A stretch of 64,000 nt of DNA from Mesorhizobium sp. 131-2-1 (lineage in GTDB: Bacteria > Pseudomonadota > Alphaproteobacteria > Rhizobiales > Rhizobiaceae): assembly GCF_016756535.1 (NCBI RefSeq), contig NZ_AP023247.1, forward strand, positions 2,170,501-2,234,500. Direction: 5' to 3'. The notes below the pieces were generated by a model, which had not been told where the DNA came from, did not search any database, and saw only the letters and a list, made by a program, of their open reading frames with translations. How positions within the stretch are numbered: the stretch's first letter is position 1; each line of letters opens with the position of its first letter. The translations under genes and the position numbers were made by a program. Of the stretch, positions 11,454 to 22,948 are shown piece after piece.

Positions 11454-13133
11454 CTAGAACAGGCCTTCGATCTGGCCGGCCTCGTTGAGGAAGATCTTTT
11501 CCGAGGACGGCGCCTTGGGCAGGCCGGGCATGGTCATGACCTCGCCGCAGATGATGACGACGAAGCCGGCGCCGGCCGAGAGCCTGACCTCGCGCACCGG
11601 CACGGTGTGGCCGGTCGGCGCGCCGCGCAGGTTCGGATCGGTCGAGAAGGAATACTGGGTCTTGGCCATGCAGACCGGCAGGTTGCCGTAGCCGGCCTGC
11701 TCCCAGGCATGCAGTTGGTCGCGGATCGACTTGTCGGCGATCGCCTCGTCGCCGCGGTAGATGCGCTTGACGATGGTGTTGACCTTCTCGAACAGCGGCA
11801 TCTCGTCGGGATAGAGCGGCGAGAACTGCGAGGCGCCGGATTCGGCGATCTCGACGATCTTCTTGGCCAGGTCCTCGATGCCGGCAGAGCCCTGGGCCCA
11901 GTGCTTGCACAGGATCGCCTCGGCGCCCTGCGCCTTGACGAAGTCCTTCATCGCCTGGATCTCGGTCTCGGTATCGGTGGTGAAGTGGTTGATCGCCACC
12001 ACTGCCGGCACGCCGAATTGCTTCACGTTCTCGATGTGGCGGCCGAGATTGAGGCAGCCCTTCCTGACCGCCTCGATATTCTCCTTACCGAGGTCTTCCT
12101 TCTTGACGCCGCCGTTCATCTTCATGGCGCGCACGGTGGCGACGATGACGGCCGCGGCCGGCTTGAGGCCCGCCTTGCGGCACTTGATGTCGAAGAATTT
12201 TTCCGCACCGAGGTCGGCGCCGAAGCCGGCCTCGGTGACGACATAGTCGGCGAGCTTGAGCGCCGTGGTGGTGGCGACCACCGAGTTGCAGCCATGCGCG
12301 ATGTTGGCGAACGGGCCGCCGTGGACGAAGGCCGGGTTGTTCTCCAGCGTCTGCACCAGGTTGGGCTGCATGGCGTCCTTCAACAGCACCGCCATGGCGC
12401 CGTCGGCCTTGAGGTCGCGGGCATAGACCGGCGACTTGTCGCGGCGGTAGGCGACGATGATGTCGCCGAGGCGCTTCTCGAGGTCCTTGAGGTCGGTGGC
12501 GAGGCACAGGATCGCCATGACTTCCGAGGCGACGGTGATGTCGAAGCCGGCCTCGCGCGGGAAACCGTTGGCGACGCCGCCGAGCGAGCAGATCATCTCG
12601 CGCAGCGCGCGGTCGTTCATGTCCATGACCCGGCGCCACACGACGCGGCGGATATCGATGCCGAGCTCGTTGCCCCAGTAGATGTGGTTGTCGATCAGTG
12701 CCGAGAGCAGATTGTGCGCGGTGGTAATGGCGTGGAAGTCGCCGGTGAAGTGGAGGTTCATGTCTTCCATCGGCACGACCTGCGCGTAGCCGCCACCGGC
12801 CGCACCGCCCTTGACGCCGAAATTCGGGCCGAGCGAGGCTTCGCGGATGCAGACGATCGCCTTCTTGCCGATGCGGTTGAGGCCATCGCCCAGGCCCACG
12901 GTCGTCGTGGTCTTGCCTTCGCCGGCGGGCGTCGGGTTGATGGCGGTGACGAGGATCAGCTTGCCGTCCTTGTTGCCCTTCACGGACTTGATGAACTCGG
13001 CCGAGACCTTGGCCTTGTCGTGGCCGTAGGGCAGCAGGTGCTCGCTCGGAATGCCGATCTTGGCGCCGATCTCCTGGATCTGTTTCTTCTTGGCGGCGCG
13101 CGCGATCTCGATGTCGGACTTCACTTCGGCCAT
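11454..13133 (-). CDS. fhs: Formate-tetrahydrofolate ligase
   Basis: A 559-residue cytoplasmic enzyme of one-carbon metabolism, making 10-formyl-tetrahydrofolate from formate, ATP and tetrahydrofolate. Full family length. The P-loop-like [18 protein letters not shown] is at about residues 66-83, followed by [25 protein letters not shown] and the conserved [19 protein letters not shown] segment ([21 protein letters not shown]). C-terminal [15 protein letters not shown] and MTMPGLPK are also typical. AGAGGAAAG precedes the ATG. It is likely monocistronic, with a predicted promoter at 13220-13248. Confidence 0.97.
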
Positions 13134-13451: not shown

Positions 13452-14576
13452 TTACTGCGTCAGCACGTTGCTGATCTCGACCATGTTCGAGCGCACCCTG
13501 AGGACATAGAAACCCATGGTGGTCAGGTGCGTCGGCAGCAGCCAGCCGTCCTCGCGGCCATTGGCGATGATGAAGGGCTGGATGCGCAGCGCCGAGACAA
13601 ATTGCGAATCCATCGTGTCCCACAGGTTCTGCAGGTGCTTTTCCTTGATCACGTCGTCGAAGTCGGCCTGGGCGCCCTTCATCAGCCCGTAATAGCCATA
13701 GAGCTGGCCATAGGCGAACCAGAAGCGGTCGTCGGCGCGGGTATCGAACCAGCCAGCGTTGTGGTTTTCCGCGCGCTCCTTGAGGATGGCCGAGGTCGAG
13801 CCGATGTCGGACGAGATGCGGTCGACATACTGCTTCAGATTGTCGGCGCGCGCATCGAACGTCGCCTGGCAGGTGGCCAGCCTTGCGTTGAAGGAGCGCA
13901 GCTTGCGCACGGCGTCGCGATAGTAGCTCGGCGTCGGCGTCTTGGGGCCGAACGGGTTGAGGCCGAAATACCAGGTCTCCTCGTCGAACTGCAAATTGCC
14001 GCGCGCATCCTGGAGATCGGCATCGATCTGTGAGGTCGTGCGCACGCGGCCCAGATTGTCGGCAAGCTCGGTCGCCGTACGCCTCACCGCCTGGTTGATG
14101 CCGCGCTGGAACGAGGCCTTGTTGTCCATCCACGGCGTATGGTCCCAGTCGATGCCGAACAGGCCGAGCTTGTAGAGGATCATCGACGAGATCCAGGCAT
14201 TCTGGTTGACATTGAAGTCGGTAAGGTCGGCTGCCACCTGGGCGATCGCCGAGTTGCCGCAGGTCTTGGCGGTATCGGTGCCGGCGCCGGCGGAGACTTG
14301 CTCGCCCGCTGAAATGCCACGCTTCTCGAATGTATATTTGTCGACGTAGTTGGGGTCAAAATTGGTCCACCACTGGGTGGCGTAGAAGAAATTGGCATAA
14401 AGGCCGGCCAGCACCAGCAAGGCCAGGCCGACCACCGCTTTCAGGATCCAGCCGCGCTGGGTGTACCAGCGACCGGCCCACATGAACGGCCACAGGATGA
14501 TGCCGACGAGGAGACCGATGCCGCGGCCGATCCACTGGAAAATCCGGGTGAAGAAGTTCACGATCGGATCAAGCAT
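13452..14576 (-). CDS. DUF2333-like membrane-anchored protein, last gene of the AAA+ operon
   Basis: 374 residues. After a short amphipathic start with repeated hydrophobic stretches, one clear membrane segment lies at about 46-66 (ILKAVVGLALLVLAGLYANFF), so most of the protein faces one side of the inner membrane, probably the periplasm. The rest is mainly helical with many aromatic residues (WYFGLNPFGPKTPTPSYYRDAV, WFDTRADDRFWFAYGQLYGYYGLMKG). The overall pattern resembles DUF2333 proteins. The ATG at 14576 begins 14 bases after the stop of the preceding gene, with AGGGG upstream. The only member of this operon with a clear membrane anchor. Function unknown. Confidence 0.75.
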   Translation of the reverse strand: MLDPIVNFFTRIFQWIGRGIGLLVGIILWPFMWAGRWYTQRGWILKAVVGLALLVLAGLYANFFYATQWWTNFDPNYVDKYTFEKRGISAGEQVSAGAGTDTAKTCGNSAIAQVAADLTDFNVNQNAWISSMILYKLGLFGIDWDHTPWMDNKASFQRGINQAVRRTATELADNLGRVRTTSQIDADLQDARGNLQFDEETWYFGLNPFGPKTPTPSYYRDAVRKLRSFNARLATCQATFDARADNLKQYVDRISSDIGSTSAILKERAENHNAGWFDTRADDRFWFAYGQLYGYYGLMKGAQADFDDVIKEKHLQNLWDTMDSQFVSALRIQPFIIANGREDGWLLPTHLTTMGFYVLRVRSNMVEISNVLTQ

Positions 14577-14590
14577 GGCTGTGTCACCCC

Positions 14591-15889
14591 TCAATCAGTC
14601 AAGCCGTAGAGGCGCGTGCGAAACGCCGCCTTGTCTTTCAAATATGTGGTTTTCAGAACGTCCACAACATGCGATCGCCAGGCGTCGCTGAAGCCGTCAT
14701 AGTCTCTGTAGAAGCCGGGCTTGTTGAAGACGTAACGCGAGACGAAGTCCTGCGGCACGAAGTCGGAGATCAGCTGGTTGGTCAGCCAGGCGTCCGGATG
14801 ATCGGGCTTGGCGCGGATCACCAGGAAACGCTGCTGCGGGAACACGTCCTCGATCTTGAGATGGCCATACTGGGCGATCTCGCGCTTGGCGGCGTTGAGG
14901 AAGGGGAAATTGCCGTCCTTGGTGATCAGGTCGGTGTGGCCGTGGATCCAGGTCTGCAGCCAAACCTTGTCGACGTCGGTCAAATTGCGGTTAGGCTCGG
15001 TGTCGCGGATCAGCGCGCGCACCACCATTTCGGCGCGATGCTCGAGATAGCCGGAGGACTCGATCCAGGAGGCGCGGGGCAACTCGATGCGGCCGGTCGC
15101 GGCGAGGAATTTGAACACCTTGTCGGCGTCCCTGATCGATAGGTAGCTCACCTGCCACGGCCGCGAGCGGCGGAAGCCGGGCGCAGCCGGGTCACTGATC
15201 ACCGTCGTCATGTCGGGATCGACGAAGACGTAGAGGCCGCCGAAATGGCTGGTCCAGTAGGCGTTGTGGCGGAAGATCACCTGGTCCGGCACCAGCGCAT
15301 TCTCGCGGATGTCGCCGCAGACCTTGGCGAGCTCCACCATGCGCTGCAGCATGGCATTGTCGCGCCAGGCGTCGGGCTCCTGCTTGAGCCGGTCGACCAG
15401 CTTGCCGAGCTCGGCCGCCTTGCCCAGCACATCTTCGGCCGACAGCACCTTGAACTCGACCTGGTTGATCGACAGCAGGTCCTCGATGTCGTTGACCTGG
15501 GGAACGGAGTCCTCGATCTCGCCGTAGATCACGTCCTTGATGGTCAGCGCGTCGATGGCGCGCTGGTTCTTGGACATGAACTCGAACATCAGCTGCGAGG
15601 TGTTGGAGAAGGCGGTGTGGACCACCGGCAGGTCGATCTGCGACGGGGTCAGGATGATGAAGCGGCGGTTGACCTCATTGGGGTCGAGATAGTCGTAGTC
15701 GCCGCATTCGTCGGCGACCTCGGGCGAGAAGCCGGTGCGGTCGATCTGGAAGCTCGTCAGCTTGGTGGGACTGAGGCCGAAGGCGACGAGCGCCTTGTTG
15801 TAGCGCTGGATGAGATGCGGCTCGTCGACCGTGAGCAGCCTGCCGTAGATCAGCTCGTTGTCACGCAGAAGGTCGGGTTTCTTGGCCAT
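14591..15889 (-). CDS. Uncharacterised 432-residue protein of the AAA+ operon
   Basis: I do not recognise the family with certainty; it looks like a conserved DUF of Hyphomicrobiales. No signal peptide, no membrane segment and no nucleotide-binding motif. It begins MAKKPDLLRDNELIYGRLL and contains a possibly beta-rich segment (RRFIILTPSQIDLPVVHTAF, GGLYVFVDPDMTTVI) and a helical middle. The C-terminus is rich in aromatic and charged residues. The ATG at 15889 is chosen; the extra upstream open frame runs through the palindromic repeats and is spurious. It lies between the ATPase gene and the membrane-anchored gene, so a soluble partner or adaptor is the reasonable guess. Confidence 0.75.
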   Translation of the reverse strand: MAKKPDLLRDNELIYGRLLTVDEPHLIQRYNKALVAFGLSPTKLTSFQIDRTGFSPEVADECGDYDYLDPNEVNRRFIILTPSQIDLPVVHTAFSNTSQLMFEFMSKNQRAIDALTIKDVIYGEIEDSVPQVNDIEDLLSINQVEFKVLSAEDVLGKAAELGKLVDRLKQEPDAWRDNAMLQRMVELAKVCGDIRENALVPDQVIFRHNAYWTSHFGGLYVFVDPDMTTVISDPAAPGFRRSRPWQVSYLSIRDADKVFKFLAATGRIELPRASWIESSGYLEHRAEMVVRALIRDTEPNRNLTDVDKVWLQTWIHGHTDLITKDGNFPFLNAAKREIAQYGHLKIEDVFPQQRFLVIRAKPDHPDAWLTNQLISDFVPQDFVSRYVFNKPGFYRDYDGFSDAWRSHVVDVLKTTYLKDKAAFRTRLYGLTD

Positions 15890-15893
15890 TATT

Positions 15894-16092
15894 CCTTCTC
15901 CCCGTTCACGGGGAGAAGGTGCCCGAAGGGCTGATGAGGGGCGCGACCTCTCCTTCTCCCCTTGTGGGAGAAGGTGGATCGGCGCGAAGCGCCGAGACGG
16001 TTGAGGGGTGGGTGACGGAGTGCCGTCGGCGCCAAGCTGGAACATCCCTCATCCGTCGCCTTCGGCGACACCTTCTCCCACAAGGGGAGAAG
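15894..16092. repeat. Cluster of rhizobial palindromic repeats inside the operon
   Basis: Three related palindromes fill the gap between two operon genes. A perfect hairpin with arms CCTTCTCCCCG and CGGGGAGAAGG spans 15894-15919. A second copy starting CCTTCTCCCCTTGTGGGAG begins near 15952, and an inverted copy ends at 16092. Copies two and three form a long inverted pair. The same CTTCTCCCCTT motif recurs at 41954. They could fold in the mRNA and affect relative expression of the genes either side. Confidence 0.85.
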
Positions 16093-16108
16093 GGGGCGTC
16101 GGCGTGCT

Positions 16109-18019
16109 TTACGCATTCCATAGCCCCTTCTTCTTCATCTCCTCGATTTCGCGCACGGCGCGGTCGCGCAGCCGGGTGTCGCGGATCATCTTGGTCACCG
16201 CGGCGTCGTCGGACTTGTCGGAGTAGCGGAATTCCGAGTCGGCGTAGCGGTTGATCTCCTGCATGACCATGTCCATCGAGAACGGTCCGCGCAGTTCCTC
16301 GATCATCGCCTTCTTGTCGTCGTAGCCCTTGTGCATGAAGGCTTCGGGCTTCTCGAACCATTCGTCCGGCAGCTCGATGTCCATGGCGCGCATCTTGATG
16401 GCGTCGGTGACGTTCTTGATGGCGCGGCCGGTGAAGCGCGGCTCGGCATCCTTGATCATGTGCAGGTAGGTGCCGATATCGGCCATCGATTTCGGCGTGC
16501 CGTTCTCCTTCATGTAGCGCTCGTAGACCTTGATCAGGCCGTCTTCCTGCGGCTTCTCGTGCTCCTCATAGGCCTCGGTCACGGCGCGCTGGATTTCCTG
16601 CGCCGCATAGAGCTTGTGGTCGCCGAGCGGAATCTTGTGGTTCTTGCCGGCGAGCAGCACGAAGATGTCGATGTAGTCGTCGCGGCTCTGCGGCCCGTCG
16701 ACCAGCCAGCGGGCGCCGGCGCGCTGGCGCAGCGCGTCGTCGACGTTTTCCGGATAGTTGGAGAACATGCCGAAGGCGCAGTTGCCGCGCACCACCGTGC
16801 CGGCGCCGGCAAAGGCGTCCATCAGGACGCCGGTGATCTCCTGCTGGCCGGCCGATGCCCGATCGTCGGAGCGCCGCGCCGCCACCTGGTCGATGTCGTC
16901 GATGGTGCCGAAGCCGATGACGCGCGGATTGAGCACGTTGTTGATGAACTGGCGGCAGTTCTGGCCGGATTTGCCCTGGTAGGACGAGATCTGGTCGACA
17001 CCGAAATTCTCGTAGGCGAAGGGATAGCTGGCGACCTGGCAATAGTCGTTGACGAGGCCGGCGATCATCTGGATCAACGTCGTCTTGCCGGTGCCCGGCG
17101 CGCCGTCGCCGATGAAGGTGAACAGGAAGCCGCCGAGTTCGACGAAGGGGTTCAGCTCGCGCTCGAAATCATAGGCCATCAGCATCTTGGCGAGCCTGAC
17201 CGACTGGAATTTGGCGATGTGGTTGCCGACGACCTCTTCAGGCTTCTTGAAGGTCATCACCAGCGGTTTCGAGCGCTTGCCGGGCGCGACATCGAAGCCG
17301 TCGAGGGTGAAATCGTCGACATCGATGCGGATATGGGCGTTCTCGAACGGACCGATGCCGTCGAAGCGGCCTTTTCGCGCCAGGAGGCCGTCGATGGCGA
17401 CGCGGGCGAAGGCGCGCGCCCGCGTCGTCAGGTCGGCGTCGTCCTTGGAACCGGCGATCGCCTTGTCGAGGCCGGCGATGATTGATTTGACCGCGTCCTG
17501 CTGGGTGTCGAACAGGAAGTCGGGCTCAGCGATGTCATTGGGCGCCTCGCCGTCGCTGTCGATCAGCTGGAACAGGTAGGAAGCCAGGCTGAAGGCGGAG
17601 ATGTAAGCCGAGGCCGACAAGAGTTTCTTGAAGGTCGCGGCTTCGTCACCTTCGAGCGGTGCGCGGGCGTTTTTCGCCTGCAGGCTTTCAAGATCCGAGC
17701 CTTCGGCGAAGACATCCGAGATGGCGAGCGCGATCGCCAGGCCGCGCCGGGCGCGGAACAGAAGCGTGTGCTGCGGAATGGTGAGCAGCTGGTCGTCGGG
17801 GTGGACGGCGGCGACCGTCTTCGACAGCTCGACCTCGCGCGTGCGGCGCACCGAACCGACCGAGACCGTCGAGACGAAGCGGCGATTGGTGCCGGCGAGC
17901 GCTGTGCCGGATTCGCGTGACGGGTCCTCCAGCACGACGATGCGGGTGATGAAGCTCTGCGCCGTGGCGCGGTGCTTTTCGATCGCGGCTTCCGAAATCG
18001 TGGTCAGGCCGGTGTCCAT
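16109..18019 (-). CDS. AAA+ ATPase of an uncharacterised operon
   Basis: A 636-residue protein with a large N-terminal region (about 1-290) unlike any domain I can name, then a AAA+ module. Walker A is GAPGTGKTT (306-314). A Walker-B-like VIGFGTIDDIDQVA (367-380) has a DD.D arrangement and is followed by an Arg-rich AARRSDDRASAGQQEIT and a sensor-like FGMFSNYPENVDDALRQRAGARW. The order resembles MoxR/RavA-type or other remodelling AAA+ ATPases, but the N-terminus differs. The C-terminal 100 residues are helical and highly charged. The ATG at 18019 follows the preceding gene by 24 bases. Likely an oligomeric ATP-driven remodeller acting on its operon partners (inference). Confidence 0.82.
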   Translation of the reverse strand: MDTGLTTISEAAIEKHRATAQSFITRIVVLEDPSRESGTALAGTNRRFVSTVSVGSVRRTREVELSKTVAAVHPDDQLLTIPQHTLLFRARRGLAIALAISDVFAEGSDLESLQAKNARAPLEGDEAATFKKLLSASAYISAFSLASYLFQLIDSDGEAPNDIAEPDFLFDTQQDAVKSIIAGLDKAIAGSKDDADLTTRARAFARVAIDGLLARKGRFDGIGPFENAHIRIDVDDFTLDGFDVAPGKRSKPLVMTFKKPEEVVGNHIAKFQSVRLAKMLMAYDFERELNPFVELGGFLFTFIGDGAPGTGKTTLIQMIAGLVNDYCQVASYPFAYENFGVDQISSYQGKSGQNCRQFINNVLNPRVIGFGTIDDIDQVAARRSDDRASAGQQEITGVLMDAFAGAGTVVRGNCAFGMFSNYPENVDDALRQRAGARWLVDGPQSRDDYIDIFVLLAGKNHKIPLGDHKLYAAQEIQRAVTEAYEEHEKPQEDGLIKVYERYMKENGTPKSMADIGTYLHMIKDAEPRFTGRAIKNVTDAIKMRAMDIELPDEWFEKPEAFMHKGYDDKKAMIEELRGPFSMDMVMQEINRYADSEFRYSDKSDDAAVTKMIRDTRLRDRAVREIEEMKKKGLWNA

Positions 18020-18043
18020 GAAGGATGCTCCGCGGTTTGACGG

Positions 18044-19189
18044 TCAGACGTCGCTGATGACCTGTCCGTTGGACAGGATGTGGACCTTGTAGCCGGAAAA
18101 GATCTTTTGCGCCTCGCCGGCGGCATAGAGCGCTTGATAGGCCTCGTGCGGGATCAGCGCATGGTTCTCGTAGCTCGACACGCCCTGGCGCGCGGCTTCC
18201 AGATCGTCCGTGTTGATGAAGAATTCCTGCGTCGTCTTCTCGCTCGAAAACAGGCCCTTGCGGCCGGGTTTCTCGGACTTCGAAAACACTTCCTGGATCG
18301 TCCAGGTGAGCAGCCAGGCGTTTTCCGGCTTGCGCACCTTGGCCAGCACTTCCGTCACCGTCGAATTGTTGTCGGTGATCCCCGCCGAGTAGAAGGGGCC
18401 GAGCACGACGCGCCGGAGCTGCTTGGGATGCAGCGGCTCGAAATCCTTGTCGAGATTGACCGCGATGGTCGCCGGCGACAGCGTGTAGGCGGAATTCTTC
18501 TCGGTGAAATCGTCGAAGCGGTGGGCGAGCTCGGGGTTGAGCAGGCCGTCGACCGGCAACGGGATGTCGACCTTCTCATTGAGCTTGCCGTTGGCATCGA
18601 CCAGCTGGCGCACCATGCTCTCCGAGGAGTCCTCCACCGTCACCATGTAGATCAACGGCAGGTTGGCGCTGCCGTCGAAGCAGGCCCAGTGGACCAGGTA
18701 ATAGGGCCGAAAGGTCTTGGGGTTGACCGAGACCTTTGCCGTCTGCGCCAGCGTGAACGGGCCGAAGGTCTGCTCGCTCCTGACGTCCTCCAGATAAAGC
18801 CGCTCGGCCATCGACTTCTGCAGCGCCTCGGGGAACTCTTTGTGGCGCAGGATGAAGTCGGCCATCTCCTCGCGCAGTTCGCCGGCCTGCGGGATGTTGG
18901 CCAGCCGGCTCTCTGCCTGGCGACGGTCGTTTTCGAGTTCCAGCAGGTTCTGGAACACCGGATAGCCGCTGTCGGCGCGCGAGATGCGGAACGTCTCCAT
19001 GAAGCCGAGCCGGTTGCGCCAGCAGGCAAAGGATTTGTCGAGCCGGGCGATGTACTCGGCGACGATCCTGGCGACGATGCCATGCCGGTAGAGCGGCGAG
19101 CGATCGTCGCGCATAAACACTTCCAGCCCGCTCAGTGCCGCCGTGATGGCGGAAAAATAGCGCGCCGCCGCTTCATTTTCGGGGGTCAT
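18044..19189 (-). CDS. Uncharacterised 381-residue protein of the AAA+ operon
   Basis: Not recognised. Soluble, no signal peptide. The first 190 residues look mainly helical (ARYFSAITAALSGLEVFM, RIVAEYIARLDKSFACW). The second half looks mixed (PYYLVHWACFDGSANLPLIYMVTVEDSS; LRRVVLGPFYSAGITDNNSTVTEVL; ENAWLLTWTIQEVFSKSE). The ATG at 19189 sits 33 bases after the stop of the coiled-coil gene. The longer open frame starts inside that gap and adds only 11 residues with no better ribosome site. It is encoded between the coiled-coil protein and the ATPase and is presumably part of the same complex. Confidence 0.75.
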   Translation of the reverse strand: MTPENEAAARYFSAITAALSGLEVFMRDDRSPLYRHGIVARIVAEYIARLDKSFACWRNRLGFMETFRISRADSGYPVFQNLLELENDRRQAESRLANIPQAGELREEMADFILRHKEFPEALQKSMAERLYLEDVRSEQTFGPFTLAQTAKVSVNPKTFRPYYLVHWACFDGSANLPLIYMVTVEDSSESMVRQLVDANGKLNEKVDIPLPVDGLLNPELAHRFDDFTEKNSAYTLSPATIAVNLDKDFEPLHPKQLRRVVLGPFYSAGITDNNSTVTEVLAKVRKPENAWLLTWTIQEVFSKSEKPGRKGLFSSEKTTQEFFINTDDLEAARQGVSSYENHALIPHEAYQALYAAGEAQKIFSGYKVHILSNGQVISDV

Positions 19190-19222
19190 GGGACTGCCTT
19201 GGAGACGAAAGCCTGCCGCCAA

Positions 19223-20311
19223 CTATTGCTGCACGTAGTTGGCGGAATTGTGCTTCTTCATCACCTCGTCGAAGCGGCGCGCGAAGGCATCGTCGGCGAG
19301 CTTCTTGCGGCGCTGGATGTCGGCCGAGGCCACCATGTTCTTCTCGTGCATTTCGAGCAGGTCGCCAATGTGCTTCTGCGACGCGGCGCCAATGCCGGCC
19401 ATGGTTTCCTCGGCGGTGTTGTCGACCTGGCTGCCCAGCGTGTTGATCTTATGGGCGACGTCCTGCTGGGCGGCGGTCTTCAGCGAGTCTTCCAAGGCCT
19501 TGTAAAGGACGATGCGCTGCTCGGTGTCGATGGTCAGCTTGTTGATCAACGTCGACTGCGCCGCGATTTGGTTGTTGAGCGAATCGACGAAGGTCTGGAA
19601 CATCGAGGTGTAGCGCTCCAGCGTCTGGCTTTCGGCCAGCAATTCCTGCTCCTTGGCCTGCTTCTCATTGTATTCCGTGGCCATTTTCGAGCGCTCGCCC
19701 TCAAGCTGCGTGCGCTCCTTCTGGCTGGTCGAGGCAGCGATCTTGTTCTCGATATCGAGCAGCATCGGGTTGAGCTCCTCGATGCGCTTCTGCACCGCCT
19801 CGAGGTTGGACATGGTGGTCTTACGGCGCTCGATCACCTGCGACAGGCTGGCCTCGGAGGTCTTGTAGCGATGGTCGAGCACTTCCTTCTGCGCCTTGAG
19901 GATGCCGACGATGGTGTCGGACTTGGCCAACAGTTCCTGCAGGTTGCCCGCCAGCGACATGTTGCGAACGCGGTCGGTGCGCATGCGCTGCTTGCGCTGG
20001 GCCGAGAAGACGCCGACGAAGTTCTCCCAGCCGGTGTAGTTCTTCATGCTCTCGAATTCGGCGCCGAAGACGTTGGTGGCGTCCTCCAGGCCGATGATCA
20101 GGTCGGCGATGTTGCCCTCCATGACCTTCTGCTGCTTGAGCACATCCTCGATGCGGGCGTTTTCGATGTCGAAATTGGCGTCGCCGATCTTCTTGTCGGC
20201 CTGGGCGAGCGTGTCGAGCACCGTTCCGGACTGCTCGATCTTCGTGCGCATGTCCTGAACGACCTGCTTGGTCTTGGCAATCTCGGCATCGAAATTCTGC
20301 AATGTCGCCAT
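19223..20311 (-). CDS. Long coiled-coil protein, first gene of the AAA+ operon
   Basis: 362 residues, nearly all predictable as alpha helix with heptad patterns. Examples are EIAKTKQVVQDMRTKIEQ at the N-terminus, then SLSQVIERRKTTMSNLEA, KRIEELNPMLLDIENKIA and QTLERYTSMFQTFVDSLN. No signal peptide or membrane segment. The general shape recalls TelA/KlaA-type toxic-anion-resistance proteins, but I cannot establish homology. GGGAGG precedes the ATG at 20311; the open frame extends far upstream through the cytochrome gene and is a shadow there. As the first gene it likely provides a filament or scaffold that the downstream AAA+ ATPase acts on (inference). Confidence 0.78.
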   Translation of the reverse strand: MATLQNFDAEIAKTKQVVQDMRTKIEQSGTVLDTLAQADKKIGDANFDIENARIEDVLKQQKVMEGNIADLIIGLEDATNVFGAEFESMKNYTGWENFVGVFSAQRKQRMRTDRVRNMSLAGNLQELLAKSDTIVGILKAQKEVLDHRYKTSEASLSQVIERRKTTMSNLEAVQKRIEELNPMLLDIENKIAASTSQKERTQLEGERSKMATEYNEKQAKEQELLAESQTLERYTSMFQTFVDSLNNQIAAQSTLINKLTIDTEQRIVLYKALEDSLKTAAQQDVAHKINTLGSQVDNTAEETMAGIGAASQKHIGDLLEMHEKNMVASADIQRRKKLADDAFARRFDEVMKKHNSANYVQQ

Positions 20312-22336: not shown

Positions 22337-22948
22337 TCAGGCCCTGGTGAAGCCGATGAAGTCGTCGGGCGTGGCGCGGCCCATTTCCTCTTCCCAGTGG
22401 CGCCGGCAAAGCGAGACATAGACGTCCTTGCCGATCGCGACCTGCTCGCCCTGCCTGGCCACCTTGCCGTCGGGACCCAGCCGCACGACCATCGTCGCCT
22501 TGCGGCCGCAGCGGCAGATGGTGCGCACTTCGCGCAGATCGTCGGCGATCGCCAGCAAGGCGCGCGAGCCGGAAAACAGCTTGCCCTGGAAATCGGTGCG
22601 CAGGCCGTAGCACATGACCGGGATGTTCAGCCGGTCGGCGATACGGGCCAGTTGCCAGACCTGTTCCTCCTCGAGGAACTGCGCCTCGTCGACGAAAATG
22701 CAATGAACCGTGGTGTGCTCATGGTGCTCGGCGACCCGGGCGAAGAGGTCGTCGCCATCGCGGAACATCTCGGCCTCGGCCTCGAGGCCAATGCGTGACG
22801 AGATCAGGCCGCCGTCGCCTTTGCGATAGTGGCCGGCGACGAACAGCATCGTCGTCATGCCGCGCTCGCGATAATTGTAGGACGCCTGCAAGAGCATCGT
22901 CGTCTTGCCGGCATTCATCGTCGCGTAGTTGAAGTAAAGCTTGGCCAT
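22337..22948 (-). CDS. tdk: Thymidine kinase, type II
   Basis: 203 residues; phosphorylates thymidine with ATP in the salvage pathway. P-loop MNAGKTT (residues 12-18), the FVDEAQFL Walker-B/catalytic segment, the DFQGKLFSGSRALLAIAD lasso region, and zinc-binding Cys residues in ICRCGRKATM plus LCRRHW. Usual length for the family. The ATG at 22948 is the only plausible start. Confidence 0.96.
   Translation of the reverse strand: MAKLYFNYATMNAGKTTMLLQASYNYRERGMTTMLFVAGHYRKGDGGLISSRIGLEAEAEMFRDGDDLFARVAEHHEHTTVHCIFVDEAQFLEEEQVWQLARIADRLNIPVMCYGLRTDFQGKLFSGSRALLAIADDLREVRTICRCGRKATMVVRLGPDGKVARQGEQVAIGKDVYVSLCRRHWEEEMGRATPDDFIGFTRA

Follow-up and report, generated by a model that had tools for sequence, protein, structure and literature searches.

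A conserved AAA+ ATPase gene block with a putatively swappable membrane partner in Mesorhizobium and distant bacteria

Here, we describe a five-gene locus, A to E, in a 64,000-nucleotide stretch of Mesorhizobium sp. 131-2-1 (assembly GCF_016756535.1, contig NZ_AP023247.1, positions 2,170,501 to 2,234,500; hereafter the window, in whose coordinates all features are given). Our strongest claim, drawn from comparison of gene neighborhoods, is that genes A to D probably constitute one functional unit. More tentatively, and short of even confidence, we favor the reading that A-B-C-D may form the core of one uncharacterized AAA+ remodelling machine for which E would be a swappable inner-membrane anchor. 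The machine reading draws on the collinearity of A to D in distant bacteria, the AAA motif set of C, the confident structural model of B, and a membrane protein of the DUF2333 or DUF1523 family, never both, in fifth place.

Genome organization and conservation

All five open reading frames (ORFs) are present on the minus strand at 13452-20311, with the place, order, strand and sizes reported in a preliminary description of this DNA. Gene A (20311-19223, 362 amino acids) encodes an all-helical protein, gene B (19192 or 19189 to 18044, 382 or 381 amino acids) a soluble protein, gene C (18019-16109, 636 amino acids) a predicted classical-type AAA+ ATPase, gene D (15889-14591, 432 amino acids) a DUF6638 protein, and gene E (14576-13452, 374 amino acids) a membrane-anchored DUF2333 protein. 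Spacers are 30 bp (A-B), 24 bp (B-C), 219 bp (C-D) and 14 bp (D-E). A sigma-70-type scan gave no promoter-like site on the operon strand, although such a scan says little in this bacterial group.

Gene C was found in all 36 other genomes of the genus that were examined (in G312 only as a 39-residue piece), or 37 of 37 with its own genome, and its product shares 97% identity with a protein of Mesorhizobium amorphae. Beyond the genus, 4 of 24 others from the same order and 26 of 398 genomes sampled across the phylum have it; in the class of an outlying match (G389, inferred to belong to Gammaproteobacteria), 1 of 274 genomes has it, and this is G389 itself. A contig scan with C confirmed at least 570 relatives, the best 80 of which, mostly close kin, were kept as named loci; together with nine and then twelve further loci and two Vibrio records, 103 loci were examined, including one double (L139 is the same place as L077, with an identical tree row). 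A-B-C-D-E is collinear on one strand in 76 of the 80 named loci, the remaining four being truncated by contig ends, and this collinearity, combined with the presence of C throughout the genus as examined, excludes chance as an explanation for the block. The A-B-C-D order is kept again in the nine and the twelve further loci. Four Vibrio megaplasmids match C, and the two inspected both carry A-B-C-D in order, with a C protein 39% identical to that of the window and profile E-values of 1e-82 to 1e-207; gene A is 33-44% identical in distant loci. When DUF6638 was searched for alone in 289 genomes of the class, it gave six matches including that of the own genome, of which five score above the cut-off and have C adjoining D, and the sixth is a sub-threshold fragment with stops. 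A phage origin of C was rejected, as none of 50,697 phage records matched it at E 1e-5.

The preliminary description had proposed conservation across Hyphomicrobiales as a check, and synteny extends well past that order. It had also counted separability of the genes in other genomes against a single complex: this applies to E, whereas A to D were never seen separated in the 101 loci where the contig allowed it, loci found via C or D, with A and B not searched for on their own.

In the 103 loci, D is followed by DUF2333 in 83, by a same-strand DUF1523 gene in 14, by both in none, and by neither in six (four truncated by contig ends, and the two Vibrio records). The 14 DUF1523 loci come from one other family of the class (11), a third family (one), the own order (one) and G389 (one), and Pfam confirmed the domain in the two loci scanned (6.5e-68 and 2e-44). 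Kinship between E and DUF1523 was rejected (hhalign 0.8%). Since one or the other of these unrelated families occupies the fifth place, and never both, the membrane anchor is by gene content swappable and the putative core is A-B-C-D. In another class, 50 of 185 genomes have DUF2333 as well, and C is present there in 1 of 274, a genome that has no DUF2333. The "membrane-linked machine" of the preliminary description is still the best fit, except that the membrane protein is not a fixed part of it, DUF1523 replacing DUF2333 in 14 loci.

Predicted proteins

Gene C carries the clearest family assignment (PF00004, 9.2e-11, 42.7 bits against a cut-off of 21.2), and Pfam lists no match over its N-terminal ~290 residues, in agreement with the AAA+ domain and unfamiliar N-terminus first described. 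Across NCBIfam, PADLOC and PHROGs, the sole matches to the locus beyond chance level are to the AAA domain of C, the best being phrog_3757 (function not known, 6.1e-7). The 16 C sequences aligned, which include two near-identical copies from Vibrio, agree without exception at G306, P308-T313, Y347-Q-G-K-S351, D374-D375, N421, R431, R433, R437 and R532. We take G306-T314 (17078..17104, minus strand) to be Walker A, YQGKS 347-351 (16967..16981, minus strand) to be pore loop 1, and I373-D374-D375 (16895..16903, minus strand) to be the end of Walker B; these names, like those of sensor and arginine finger for other residues, are standard AAA terms applied to the alignments. HMMER alignments place YQGKS on the matching segments of Afg2, i-AAA and Rpt2. 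Classical AAA proteins have an aromatic pore loop 1 and a Walker B catalytic glutamate; C has the former in 16 of 16 sequences and lacks the latter, with D375 in its place in all 16 and Walker B ending DD, as against DE in four of five aligned PDB relatives and DQ in one. Because of this substitution, C is called AAA-type by fold and its ATPase activity is only predicted. Overall, C resembles classical AAA ATPases (i-AAA/FtsH, Afg2, Rpt, katanin) in its Walker A, aromatic loop, N421, arginines 431-437 and R532, and differs from them in its N-terminal ~290 residues without a family, its long C-terminal extension and its Walker B DD. Its best PDB sequence match reaches only 27.1 bits; for A, B, D and E no credible PDB sequence relatives were found.

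Neither A nor B has any Pfam match above cut-off. The model of B is confident (mean predicted local distance difference test score, pLDDT, 90.9) and consists of a helical part (residues 3-138) and an alpha/beta part (~145-379). The T-fold superfamily, which groups urate oxidase, dihydroneopterin aldolase, GTP cyclohydrolase and QueF and features a purine/pterin anchor residue and a tunnel-forming oligomer, accounts for 42 of the 50 structural matches listed for residues ~156-343; these weak matches to the modelled structure suggest that the alpha/beta part may include a T-fold-like domain there. Kinship of B with D was rejected (hhalign 0.7%).

The AlphaFold2 model of A is all-helical and of low confidence (mean pLDDT 64.4), with a confident part at about residues 150-230 that forms the tip of a long helical hairpin. 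The "coiled coil" of the preliminary description is retained provisionally, on sequence character and on this model, and the filament that it suggested is hypothetical, no filament-forming family being assignable. Kinship with TelA (PF05816, of Ter systems) was rejected at an hhalign probability of 0.4%; a TelA match is absent from the own genome, and 9 of 17 genomes searched carry one elsewhere. Among the best 50 structural matches listed for this poor model, alpha-pore-forming proteins (Ahl/Smh/Yax type) rank top, tied with unrelated helical proteins. Proteins of that type are expected to have a hydrophobic membrane-insertion segment; A has none (highest 19-residue hydropathy 0.91).

D matches DUF6638 over residues 15-429, nearly its full length (PF20343, 1.6e-70, 238.6 bits against a cut-off of 27), and E matches DUF2333 (PF10095, 8.4e-23, 81.3 bits against 22), both above curated cut-offs, although the family names assign no function. 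Two hydrophobic stretches in E, with windows above 1.3 at residues 10-37 and 39-68, agree with the membrane-anchored DUF2333-like protein previously proposed; in A to D, among them the two proteins described there as soluble (B and D), no 19-residue window exceeds 1.22. A literature search found no publication on DUF6638; DUF2333 is described in print as conserved but uncharacterized, and DUF1523 figures in passing mentions or table rows in which a function is not given.

Inserted genes

The C-D gap (15890..16108) contains palindromic repeats and is empty in the window, and in many other strains it holds inserted genes. Gaps were surveyed in 99 loci with C and D (one a double), and cargo was recognized by similarity to ten seed proteins. 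Pfam, run on eight of these, labels seven above cut-off and the HEPN-like one (DUF4145) below it; the other two seeds are membrane proteins. A recognized same-strand gene occupies 44 of the 99 C-D gaps: DUF559 (Vsr-like) in 31 (one with a Phd gene), Phd-PIN in five, HEPN-like in two, AbiJ_NTD4, DUF3825 and a cold-shock-domain ATPase in one each, and small membrane proteins in three. In three more C-D gaps the insert lies on the opposite strand: it is PLD-like in L083 and in L095, and encodes a HicB-like antitoxin in L105. L095 has an additional same-strand 264-residue ORF. Fic genes occupy 7 of the 99 B-C gaps, and two B-C gaps have a membrane-protein-like ORF (one at 22% identity). DUF559 is present in one of the 99 A-B gaps, and five other A-B gaps longer than 380 bp have only unassigned ORFs. 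None of the 83 D-E gaps has recognized cargo. The full Fic catalytic motif is present in six of the seven Fic genes, and the R-x4-H motif in the HEPN-like pair. The Fic-family gene in the B-C gap of L074 is without the usual catalytic motif; a Fic label in L144 is an artefact of 24 residues next to DUF3825. The long A-B gaps of four related loci, L143, L144, L146 and L147, contain small ORFs without an assignment, of which some are membrane-like. A Vsr-like DUF559 protein of Caulobacter is described as causing the SOS response that part of the cells without the methylase ScmA show (PMC12907096). HEPN families include DUF4145 and AbiJ, to which the AbiJ-NTD4 domain occurs as a fusion (PMC3710099).

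Across the 80 named loci, the seeds have 50 matches between the genes of the operon (54.1 kb of DNA) and none in the flanks (1081 kb), a contrast inflated by the origin of the seeds in the slot itself. Five DUF559 genes are present in the own genome, none of them at the A-E locus. A FastTree tree built from 96 loci and the window (97 rows, with 23 of the 93 inner branches weak) requires at least 30 changes in C-D content, 20 in the presence of DUF559 and six in that of Fic; these counts pool gains and losses. In L030, the nearest tree row to the window, the DUF559 gene sits between 54-bp inverted palindromic repeats (98%), and the empty slot of the window has a 51-bp match to these repeats at 15892-15942. 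Since the repeats bound the L030 gene and the window keeps one repeat match without the gene, this arrangement suggests that the gene is a mobile or excisable cassette. The slot may have a function, its cargo serving as effectors in defence or stress, or may simply tolerate insertions; the same-strand orientation of cargo in 44 of 47 occupied gaps would also be expected from selection against antisense genes in an operon.

Sequences flanking A-E in the window (11454-13133 and 22337-22948) resemble by eye formate-tetrahydrofolate ligase and thymidine kinase genes, the same neighbors as annotated in L192. This record (Sinorhizobium meliloti Ak57, pSymB) is the sole plasmid record under the name S. 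meliloti to match C. Its full A-E block lies close to fhs and a thymidine kinase gene, and the C-D gap contains an endonuclease-domain gene together with an IS4-like transposase.

Interpretation

If A-B-C-D is a remodelling machine, C would form a ring that threads or pulls a substrate via its pore loop, helical protein A would be the likeliest polymer or substrate, and B and D would act as adaptors, the T-fold-like part of B perhaps as a sensor or oligomer former; E or DUF1523 would place the assembly at the envelope. The pore-loop motif, the helical protein and the membrane partner make this the most economical mechanism, for which the substrate, the contacts and ATP hydrolysis by C are what we infer. 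A narrower form of the idea is an ESCRT-III/Vps4-type membrane-remodelling pair, in which C disassembles a membrane polymer of A; A and C would share with Vps4/ESCRT-III and PspA/Vipp1 the notion of an AAA ring and a helical protein at a membrane, with A at most a candidate member, and PspA is placed in the ESCRT-III superfamily (PMC8281802). We consider it very unlikely, since the match of A to the PspA/ESCRT-III profile (41.7% over 64 columns) is below the usual level of trust, with reversed controls at 0.9-1.1% and self-reversed A already at 21.6%. Moreover, PspA and Snf7 are absent among the 25 shown of 27 Pfam families for 26 A members, PspA is absent among the 50 structural matches listed, the Shrub structural match of A is outranked by unrelated helical proteins and lies below the level trusted for helical models, and no MIT-domain match for C was found in Pfam. 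A DUF2333-pspA linkage seen in one genome was dropped, the two genes lying near each other in 1 of the 46 DUF2333 genomes searched (of 50 found).

The inserted genes admit two further accounts of the locus. A-B-C-D could sense or handle an insult such as phage or DNA damage, with the C-D and B-C inserts as exchangeable effectors, as the cargo in 44 of 99 C-D gaps and the Fic genes in seven B-C gaps, its absence from D-E gaps, the repeated changes in slot content on the 97-row tree and the patchy distribution outside Mesorhizobium would suggest. However, cargo is missing from about half of the C-D gaps and is therefore dispensable, C was found in all 37 genomes examined in the genus (the own one included), the neighbors of the block in rhizobia resemble housekeeping genes, and the opposite-strand inserts (PLD-like twice, HicB-like once) and insertion sequence (IS) element are as in a neutral hotspot. 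The PADLOC anti-phage catalogue has no matching component set, only weak matches to the AAA domain of C (best TRIP13, 2.1e-4, and IetA, 3.9e-4) and, up to E 1, none to A, B, D or E; we regard such a conflict or stress system as unlikely. Alternatively, the genes could be co-regulated without a shared complex and the slot a neutral insertion hotspot, given that the slot also accepts an IS element and opposite-strand genes and that any contacts among A to D are hypothetical. This, too, seems improbable, because the A-D order is kept across bacterial classes while the surrounding genes differ. The boldest proposal, in our judgement a long shot, is that A-B-C-D would be a bacterial AAA-driven machine of a new class: B would contribute a purine/pterin-type sensor domain, the membrane anchors would be interchangeable, and toxins and nucleases would be recruited repeatedly through an effector slot, giving a modular platform for stress or defence that no catalogued system resembles.

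A four-protein AAA module that different bacterial classes keep together, and whose membrane partner comes from one or the other of two unrelated families, constitutes good evidence of a machine, and the literature found on DUF2333, DUF6638, DUF1523 and combined terms does not describe it. The A-E locus gives a shared context to these three DUF families, and the recurrent toxin and nuclease genes within the operon offer a hypothesis that is directly testable in Mesorhizobium.

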